Of a stretch of 64,000 nucleotides of DNA, positions 1 through 450 are shown in pieces. The position numbers and the translations under genes are program-made. Numbering within the stretch: position 1 is the first letter of the stretch; each line of letters opens with the position of its first letter. The notes beneath the pieces are model-generated. The model made no database searches. It was not told the DNA's origin and was given only the letters and a program-made list of their open reading frames with translations. This stretch comes from Tatumella morbirosei (lineage in GTDB: Bacteria > Pseudomonadota > Gammaproteobacteria > Enterobacterales > Enterobacteriaceae): assembly GCF_000757425.2 (NCBI RefSeq), contig NZ_JPKR02000002.1, positions 1-64,000 of the forward strand, given 5' to 3'.

Positions 1-29
1 GAGCGAAGCGAGTCATCCTGCACGACCAC
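1..29. repeat. tRNA-Lys-derived repeat, copy A (3' end only)
   Basis: The window opens inside a copy of the repeat seen complete at 59-161 and 348-450. Visible are the GAGCGAAGCGAGTCA segment and then TCCTGCACGACC, which is the 3' strand of the T arm and acceptor stem of the tRNA-Lys at 202-277. A TTTTAGAAA stretch follows, resembling the sequence just downstream of the tRNA gene. The rest of the copy lies left of the window. Confidence 0.75.
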
Positions 30-58
30 CAGTTTTAGAAATACGCAGTGATAGTAGA

Positions 59-161
59 CGTGCAGCATGAGAACCTGCTGCAGGTTCGAGTCGAACGCAG
101 TCAGACAACGTTGTTAGCAACGGCCCGCAGGGCGAGCGAAGCGAGTCATCCTGTACGACCC
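59..161. repeat. tRNA-Lys-derived repeat, copy B
   Basis: This 103-bp unit is about 94% identical (six differences counted by eye) to copy C at 348-450. It begins CGTGCAGCATGAG and ends GTCATCCTGTACGACCC, so its ends are nearly inverted repeats. Inside are small hairpins: AACCTG/CAGGTT, TTCGA/TCGAA, CGTTG/CAACG and GCCC/GGGC. GCAGGTTCGA and the final TCCTG(C/T)ACGACCC are the two strands of the T arm plus acceptor 3' end of tRNA-Lys, split by about 60 bp. It lies directly upstream of the intact tRNA-Lys and may be in the same transcript. E. coli tyrT has an analogous arrangement (rtT repeats carrying a tRNA 3' end). Function unknown. Confidence 0.8.
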
Positions 162-201
162 AGCATTTAGAAAGAGTGTCGCAATACAAAAATCCCTTAA
201 G

Positions 202-277
202 GGGTCGTTAGCTCAGTTGGTAGAGCATTTGACTTTTAATCAATTGGTCGCAGGTTCGAATCCTGCACGACCCACCA
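202..277 (+). tRNA. tRNA-Lys (anticodon TTT)
   Basis: A full 76-nt cloverleaf with encoded CCA. The acceptor stem GGGTCGT pairs with ACGACCC, the D arm is TAGCTCAGTTGGTAGAGCA, the anticodon loop is CTTTTAA with anticodon TTT at 235-237, and the T arm is GCAGGTTCGAATCCTGC. It matches the E. coli lysT family almost base for base. In E. coli this lysine/valine tRNA cluster precedes nadA, pnuC, zitB and aroG; here zitB and aroG follow about 5 kb downstream, so it is probably the last tRNA of the equivalent operon. A terminator follows within 15 bp. Confidence 0.98.
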
Positions 278-289
278 ATTTAGAAAAGA

Positions 290-324
290 GCACCCCGTTG
301 TTATAAACAGCGGCGTGCTTTTTT
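290..324 (+). terminator. Rho-independent terminator of the tRNA-Lys transcript
   Basis: An imperfect stem GCACCCCGTTGT/ACAGCGGCGTGC with a short loop is followed by six T residues at 319-324. It begins 12 bases after the tRNA CCA end, so it should end the tRNA operon transcript before repeat copy C. Confidence 0.85.
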
Positions 325-347
325 CGTTTCAGAGCTCAGAAGCAAAA

Positions 348-450
348 CGTGCAGAATGAGAACCTGCTGCAGGTTCGAGTCGAACGCAGTGAGACAACGT
401 TGTTTACAACGGCCCGAAGGGCGAGCGAAGCGAGTCATCCTGCACGACCC
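348..450. repeat. tRNA-Lys-derived repeat, copy C
   Basis: A second complete 103-bp unit, downstream of the terminator. It begins CGTGCAGAATGAG and ends TCATCCTGCACGACCC, an almost perfect 12-bp terminal inverted repeat. Relative to copy B, the CGTTG(TTAG)CAACG hairpin becomes CGTTGT(TT)ACAACG, so pairing is kept despite the base changes. The final 13 bases equal the 3' end of tRNA-Lys without CCA, followed by a CAGAAAA stretch like that downstream of the tRNA. No ORF covers it. It could be a structured RNA or a mobile palindromic element. Confidence 0.8.

Follow-up and report, generated by a model that had tools for sequence, protein, structure and literature searches.

The closest described system is RtT, a known family (Rfam RF00391) that includes rttR and the tyrT repeats of Escherichia coli. 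RtT is reported, in work on E. coli, to have a role in the stringent response. Passages of the literature present the rtT RNA of Salmonella as a 175-bp variable tandem repeat (PMC2658671), place a tandem G-A motif in RtT (PMC7657543), and count RtT among the sRNAs detected by RNA-seq in Pectobacterium (PMC4710047). For Actinobacillus pleuropneumoniae, passages of PMC4986893 describe RtT next to Asn and Lys tRNA genes, Northern signals for RtT RNAs and their release from tRNA operons, and tie RtT to the stringent response by citation. Two other kinds of sequence share features with RtT. The hallmark of REP is a hairpin with a conserved 5′ tetranucleotide in dispersed intergenic copies; BIME/REP are short palindromic intergenic repeats of enterobacteria, as is RtT, but tRNA-derived arms and sites at tRNA genes belong to RtT. 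Some BIME attenuators are called similar to rtT in passages of PMC2965389. Partial copies of tRNAs at integration sites of mobile elements are, like RtT, 3′ tRNA fragments beside the gene; however, in the example in passages of PMC9897764, a paper on tRNA gene fragments whose passages do not mention RtT, the copy lies at the far end of a 21-kb island, whereas RtT copies mostly lie tens to hundreds of bases away, are split by a core, and are paired with an inverted arm.

Here, we analyze RtT units at the start of the window, i.e., the 64,000-nt stretch of the Tatumella morbirosei genome analyzed here, and compare them with units from other genomes. The family itself is known; new here are arms tailored to the neighboring tRNA and tRNA-matched units in records from several phyla. 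Compared with Rfam RtT, the wider set covers 14 isoacceptors, has allele-matched arms, includes units far outside Enterobacterales, and contains many members below the cut-off. In the titles, abstract beginnings, and passages of the open-access literature, we recognized neither an account of RtT arms matched to the neighboring tRNA nor a report of RtT outside Enterobacterales and Pasteurellaceae, although novelty is thereby unproven on both points. The locus contains the following features:

1–31, + strand: RtT remnant, the 3′ end of a unit (ATCCTGCACGACC-ACCA), truncated by the contig start; acceptor strand one C short
46–165, + strand: RtT copy 1 (unit 59–161); RF00391, 64.7 bits versus a cut-off of 45
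202–277, + strand: tRNA-Lys (TTT); ARAGORN, and RF00005 with 77.7 bits
250–254/262–266, 267–273, and 275–277, + strand: T-stem, acceptor 3′ strand, and CCA, respectively, of this tRNA-Lys; ARAGORN
288–324, + strand: terminator-like hairpin with a run of six T, between the tRNA and the last RtT copy; by eye
335–454, + strand: RtT copy 2 (unit 348–450); RF00391, 81.3 bits
348–354, + strand: 5′ arm of copy 2 (sequence CGTGCAG), the complement of the 3′ strand of the T-stem and of the first part of the acceptor strand; from the computed fold
361–378, + strand: arms of the inner hairpin, AACCTGC and GCAGGTTCGA; sequence and alignment
379–436, + strand: hairpin core splitting the copied T arm in two; alignment and fold
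437–450, + strand: copy of tRNA-Lys from T-loop A59-T60 through the 3′ strands of T-stem and acceptor stem (ATCCTGCACGACCC); sequence and positional identity

A preliminary description of the window suggested that its repeats are a lysine-tRNA counterpart of the rtT repeats of E. coli tyrT, and this proved correct. By the covariance model (gathering score 45), copies 1 and 2 match RtT at E values of 1e-11 and 8e-16 in a 3-kb scan, arguing that neither match is due to chance; the window repeats are members of the RtT family. They have in common with rttR and the tyrT repeats the match to the model, the position beside a tRNA, the copied tRNA 3′ end, and the hairpin core. They differ in that their arms are lysine arms while those of the tyrT repeats are tyrosine arms, and in that the last copy in the window sits behind a terminator-like hairpin. 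The search for further copies next to tRNA genes was likewise positive: the same genome contains nine RtT matches at E ≤ 1, eight of them above the cut-off and every one with a tRNA in its flank, and 27 of 60 relatives also have RtT, in 26 cases with a score above the cut-off. Among all listed RtT matches studied, 225 of 237 have a same-strand tRNA within 1 kb in the fetched stretches. The lysine version of RtT is not new because the lysT operon of E. coli K-12 (NC_000913.3, 780000–783500) contains five RtT matches, all above the cut-off (47–60 bits); we note that the NC_000913.3 record leaves these five unannotated. At K-12 tyrT, there are four RtT matches of 133–138 bits, of which the record annotates rttR alone, and a Tpr-type protamine-like reading frame is annotated within rttR.

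The window comprises positions 1–64000 of contig C3 and, thus, starts at base 1 of that contig. The end of another contig, C5, carries cpoB (NCBIfam CpoB, 420 bits), two tRNA-Lys genes, an RtT match, and then, by eye, the first bases of a further tRNA-Lys, while zitB (488 bits) lies downstream in the window. The gene order in E. coli K-12 is cpoB, lysT operon, nadA, and pnuC, and we take zitB to be the next gene after pnuC. Based on this comparison, the locus is most likely the end of a lysT-type tRNA operon that the assembly broke across contigs C5 and C3. Between the tRNA operon and, by eye, an AlkA/Ada-like frame, the window contains a frame (1535–2647, + strand) that resembles thioester-reductase/SDR domains below the curated cut-offs; K-12 has nadA at this place.

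The two full repeats seen by the preliminary description flank tRNA-Lys as direct repeats (58–161 and 347–450; 94% identity over 104 nt), and both contain GCAGGTTCGA, which in copy 2 equals the T-stem 5′ strand of the tRNA plus T54-A58. Several details needed correction. Both copies were said to contain the T-arm and acceptor sequence; in copy 2, all 12 T-stem and acceptor bases equal those of tRNA-Lys, whereas copy 1 has TCCTGTACGACCC, which differs by one base. In the terminal copy 2, the ACCA end is lost. The third copy, described at 1–29, is an RtT remnant, but its truncation is simply the start of the contig, and its GACCC is one C short. Terminal 12-bp inverted repeats are present but imperfect (one A/C mismatch in copy 2; one C/C mismatch and one G-T pair in copy 1). 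The hairpin difference that was thought to preserve pairing lies in a loop (TTAG versus TTTA), and the two window copies, therefore, provide no compensatory change.

To describe the anatomy of RtT, we aligned 108 units, one per genome and isoacceptor. A unit begins with arm A′, the complement of the 3′ strand of the T-stem and of part of the acceptor strand, followed by GAUGAGAACC; in some units, this part is nearly or exactly an antisense T arm, GGATTCGAACC. Then come the sense T-stem 5′ strand and T54-A58 (GGTTCGA), the core hairpins (H1, H2, a near-invariant CCCG-N-AGGG hairpin, and H4), and finally ATCC, the T-stem 3′ strand, the acceptor strand, and CCA. This order places the core between A58 and A59 of the second T-arm copy. 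The earlier suggestion of a palindrome that would insert into tRNA T loops agrees with this anatomy, in which the core interrupts the additional T arm at T-loop position 58/59. In computed folds, an A′:A helix closes 79 of the 108 units; as modeled, it would resemble the acceptor/T-arm minihelix of a tRNA with a 3′ NCCA overhang. Copy 2 has a minimum free energy of −38.4 kcal/mol (z = −3.43), and none of 200 shuffled sequences folds as stably; copy 1 (−36.2 kcal/mol; z = −1.84) is only weakly better than its shuffles, 11 of 200 of which reach its energy. For both window copies, the opposite strand folds about equally well, and over the 108 units, the mean folding energies of antisense and sense are −0.427 and −0.428 kcal/mol per nt. 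Because antisense is as stable as sense, energy is uninformative with respect to the strand. RNAalifold on a MAFFT alignment of all 108 sequences gave nearly no structure (−2.4 kcal/mol), which we think is caused by hairpin lengths that differ between groups, and smaller alignments were used instead.

More importantly, the arms follow the neighboring tRNA. The sample comprised 237 matches with their tRNAs: 148 of the 150 listed matches in relatives (two partial ones on contigs of one genome, G029, were left out) and 89 of the 105 listed matches from a sample across the class that lay outside the window's own genome (16 weak ones were excluded). Of these, 12 had no tRNA in reach and three no tRNA ending in CCA, leaving 222 usable listed matches from 67 genomes and 14 isoacceptors (Lys, Tyr, Pro ×3, Ser ×4, Gln ×2, Arg ×2, and Glu). 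In 181 of these 222 listed matches, the unit repeats without mismatch the 12 nt that make up the T-stem 3′ strand plus acceptor strand of its own neighbor, compared with a mean of 15.8 and a maximum of 27 when tRNAs were shuffled. The own tRNA fitted better than all 42 other tRNA ends in 200 of the 222, tied in 8, and was worse in 14. Because tandem copies are not independent, we also counted one match per genome and isoacceptor, and identity held in 106 of 126 (shuffled mean 6.1, maximum 14). The copying extends to alleles: among the alleles of the same isoacceptor, the own allele matched the 3′ end better in 173, equally in 9, and worse in 7 of 189 listed matches. In relatives, the T-stem 3′ strand of tRNA-Ser(GGA) occurs in four versions (CCCTC, CCCTT, CCCCC, and CCCCG), with matching differences in the two outer arms of the adjacent RtT.

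The 5′ arm tends to track the tRNA less strictly than the 3′ end does. Among the listed matches, it pairs in a run of at least 8 in 69 of 196 (shuffled, 11.7), and exact 8-mer matches numbered 62 against a shuffled mean of 5.7 and maximum of 13. Compared with all other alleles of the isoacceptor, the own allele was better in 81, tied in 28, and worse in 17 of 126. Ranking by the best 8-mer was weak, with the own tRNA better in 60, tied in 62, and worse in 100 of 222. In a separate test on the window's own genome, which did not detect the RtT with N letters where C5 ends, a downstream copy of the 3′ end was found at 6 of 78 tRNA genes, all of them at RtT loci; a copy within 700 nt upstream was found at 4 of the 78, and some tRNAs lie downstream of another tRNA's RtT. 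Altogether, most RtT elements end in an exact copy of the end of the neighboring tRNA, within a conserved fold.

The multi-hairpin fold is conserved with compensatory changes, for which the preliminary description had proposed a search and which are strong in the alignments of relatives. In an alignment of 11 Ser-GGA units, 95.1% of the cells at paired positions are paired, both sides changed in 10 of 28 pairs (shuffled mean 5.1), and the covariation score was 0.308 versus 0.091 for shuffles; none of 500 shuffles was as high on either of these two measures, and shifting the columns by 1–3 lowered the score to 0.026–0.094. In an alignment of 23 Lys, Tyr, Pro, and Arg units that includes the window, both sides changed in 13 of 24 pairs (6.4 in shuffles), and the covariation score was 0.321 versus 0.136, again with 0 of 500 shuffles as high; one of five measures, the number of further pair types, was not raised (26 versus 24.9; 185 of 500 shuffles as high). 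Covariation of the arms is in part the copying of the tRNA itself; H1 and H2 are independent of this copying. In the Ser alignment, H1 and H2 together have 25 cells changed on both sides, none changed on one side, and eight unpaired. The combination of 25 both-sided and no one-sided changes is unusual for RNA drift and counts against a reading of RtT as purely an RNA.

The mismatches in the core hairpins bear on the same question. Beside 1889 Watson-Crick pairs, the core hairpins contain 23 G·T, 15 A·C, and 45 other mismatches; the tRNAs used for comparison contain 23, 5, and 0, respectively, beside 1006 Watson-Crick pairs, and in background DNA, the ratio of G·U to A·C is 203:180. An excess of G·U over A·C in the core hairpins is, thus, not clear (23:15 versus 23:5 in tRNAs; Fisher P = 0.10). 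An earlier parse with rough helix borders gave ratios of 13:2 for H2, 3:0 for H4, 2:9 for H1, and 44:59 for the closing helix and was redone on the core hairpins.

Where an RtT copy is flanked by tRNA genes within an operon, transcription would be expected to run through it, barring a separate promoter for the following tRNA. The suggestion that the repeat is a structured RNA processed with the tRNA fits such intra-operon copies; in contrast, the last copy in the window (348–450) lies behind what by eye is a terminator-like hairpin, which is bulged, so that our automatic terminator test scored that gap as having none. Counting one copy within 100 nt per tRNA locus, a terminator-like hairpin separates the tRNA from RtT at 69 of 133 tRNA-proximal copies (Pro, 18/18; Ser, 25/38; Lys, 14/24; Gln, 8/20; Arg, 2/3; Glu, 2/3; and Tyr, 0/27), compared with 43 of 1480 random 60-mers, the tested gaps being up to 82 nt long and the controls 60 nt. 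Because 69 of the 133 lie behind such a hairpin, many copies may be transcribed by read-through alone.

The likeness of the tails that follow the copies and the tRNA (TTTAGAAA and CAGAAAA), noticed in the preliminary description, is an instance of a wider pattern. Over 108 terminal copies, the acceptor strand is 92–96% identical to that of the tRNA gene, CCA is 86–94% identical, and the next 30 bases are 55–78% identical to the tRNA tail; 34 of the 237 matches were skipped, and the comparison was anchored on the T-stem, whose own identities are, therefore, high by construction. This likeness indicates that tail and terminator were duplicated too and that the copied tRNA end has been better kept. 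Several last copies lack the CCA end. In E. coli, the number of tyrT copies varies mostly by one unit, in steps of ∼178 bp: in the 20 records (of 40 listed) with both flanks, the tyrT span is 1401 bp in eight, 1224–1226 bp in two, 1045–1049 bp in three, and 870–871 bp in six, and the remaining record has 752 bp and a single tRNA. Because strains of E. coli differ in copy number, no fixed dose of RtT seems to be needed. Four listed E. coli records (H42–H45, one named ST131) match no more than 29% of the tyrT region at their best place, which may reflect an interruption of the locus near tyrV.

The distribution of RtT is patchy. In addition to the 27 of 60 relatives, RtT occurs in at least 51 of 274 genomes sampled across the class, up to 11 candidates being scored per genome; of these 51, 19 exceed the Rfam cut-off. 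Among relatives, the nearest core from another genome lies at the same isoacceptor for 50 of 58 (expected, 11.2), and cores at different tRNAs of the same genome (0.488; 61 pairs) barely exceed unrelated pairs (0.467) in similarity. In the class sample, by comparison, the nearest core lies at the same isoacceptor for just 14 of 50 (expected, 6.9), and same-genome cores at different tRNAs reach 0.585 (17 pairs); when genome labels were permuted, the mean was 0.485 and the maximum 0.580, and 0 of 1000 permutations reached 0.585.

A strict pattern scan of named genomes yielded at least 116 stretches, with names for 80 of the 116. The pattern requires GGATGAGAACC and, thus, selects for that arm; it is strict in that none of the nine RtT matches in the window's own genome fits it, and it was found in 8 of 398 genomes of the phylum. 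Among the 116 listed stretches, 87 have an upstream tRNA within 1.5 kb, at a median distance of 55 nt. The exact end of the upstream tRNA is present in 51 listed stretches (shuffled mean 1.7, maximum 5) and is found with up to two mismatches in 62, while 33 of the 103 listed pattern hits with an upstream tRNA have no copied end within two mismatches. The tRNA-matched records include ones named as Alpha-, Beta-, and Gammaproteobacteria, Opitutaceae, Akkermansiaceae, Lishizhenia, and Owenweeksia, and also as Gracilibacteria, Saccharibacteria, an archaeon, and Nanoarchaeota, i.e., they extend to other proteobacterial classes, Verrucomicrobia, Bacteroidota, candidate-phyla bacteria, and archaea; the taxon labels of metagenome bins may be wrong. 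The locus named Nanoarchaeota (L302) has a frame with six hits, all below cut-offs and all to the ribosomal protein L10 group PRK04019, which we take to be archaeal. In the 62 listed tRNA-matched stretches, the copy includes CCA at 50 of 55 genes that encode CCA and lacks it at 6 of 7 genes that do not; at the seventh, L302, CCA follows slightly further on. At three tRNA-Phe loci (L254, L275, and L277), the T-stem 3′ strand is copied and the acceptor end is not, and in a Roizmanbacteria bin (L313), a unit with a tRNA-Trp end lies 978 nt from tRNA-Trp, with an apparent reading frame between them by eye. A phage origin was not supported: among 2.9 million viral contigs, the pattern occurs three times, each time in a stretch without a tRNA by ARAGORN.

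How do these units arise and persist? We give even chances to the model that RtT is a multi-hairpin unit closed by a copied tRNA helix and cut out as RNA by tRNA processing. In this model, a unit is made up of five small hairpins, and its closing helix is a copy of the neighbor's T-stem and of part of its acceptor stem. The last bases of the unit are the 3′ sequence of that tRNA, in most cases including CCA if CCA is encoded by the gene. If co-transcribed, the closing helix could imitate the acceptor/T-arm helix, such that tRNA-maturation enzymes would release a small stable RNA. We speculate that copies are gained and lost by recombination via the tRNA end and tail that they have in common with the gene, and that selection on the fold keeps the 5′ arm complementary, possibly aided by template switching between the inverted arms. 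The Northern signals in A. pleuropneumoniae favor this model; the copies behind terminators, the unclear G·U excess, the pattern of changes in H1 and H2, the equal folding of both strands, the weak folding of copy 1, the one covariation measure that was not raised, the differing copy number of E. coli strains, and the pattern hits without a copied end count against it. The unit steps in E. coli copy number, the copying of tail and terminator, and the loss of the CCA end in several last copies would also fit a functionless, neutral tandem duplication of tRNA 3′ ends homogenized by gene conversion; however, compensatory changes in a multi-hairpin core at a fixed locus, the better conservation of the copied end than of the tail, and the tendency of the inverted 5′ arm to track tRNA alleles, for which the gene offers no inverted copy as a source of conversion, make this improbable. 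It is very improbable that the units are leftover attachment sites of phages or islands integrated at the tRNA 3′ end. An integrated element is known to carry part of the tRNA on its far side, as described in passages of PMC9897764, but in RtT, a conserved core divides the copy, an inverted copy stands before it, and units repeat in tandem; among the listed matches with an upstream tRNA, 196 of 208 lie at most 400 nt away, and in the window, tRNA-Lys and unit 2 are just 70 bp apart (278–347), with no integrase gene or island between them.

Rather unlikely, but more probable than these two readings, is the idea of a mobile or selfish element: RtT would be a small piece of DNA, non-autonomous, that settles at tRNA T arms. 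Its arms would be rebuilt on arrival from the local gene, with T arm, acceptor end, tail, and often terminator duplicated, so that the host gene would never be damaged, and the hairpins would act as folded single-stranded DNA. The patchy distribution among relatives and in the class, the likeness, in the class sample, of the cores that a genome has at different tRNAs, the lack of a clear G·U excess, the copies behind terminators, the occurrence of tRNA-matched units in records whose names point to several phyla and to archaea, and CCA in the copy following the gene all argue for such an element. By contrast, the cores of relatives stay with their isoacceptor, indicating long residence, cores within one of these genomes are little more alike than unrelated ones, and the near absence of the pattern from viral contigs, with no tRNA in the three exceptions, speaks against mobility. 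More broadly, we tentatively propose that RtT is a wide bacterial and archaeal family of tRNA-homing elements, in which the core spreads across tRNAs while the arms are rebuilt in both orientations as an acceptor-helix mimic. Arms that track the neighboring gene allele by allele at many tRNAs need a mechanism that rewrites or selects their ends. If RtTs act as RNA, they would be acceptor-helix mimics that could engage tRNA enzymes; if they act as DNA, they would be a widespread class of tRNA-bound elements that leave the host gene intact. Genome scans would have a simple readout, namely a tRNA end that is duplicated and has its core at T-loop position 58/59.

Elsewhere in the window, we found matches to two other Rfam families on the + strand, i.e., a molybdenum/tungsten cofactor riboswitch (RF01055; 26825–26962; 78.2 bits) and a Peptidase-S11 RNA motif (RF03039; 38419–38502; 47.5 bits).
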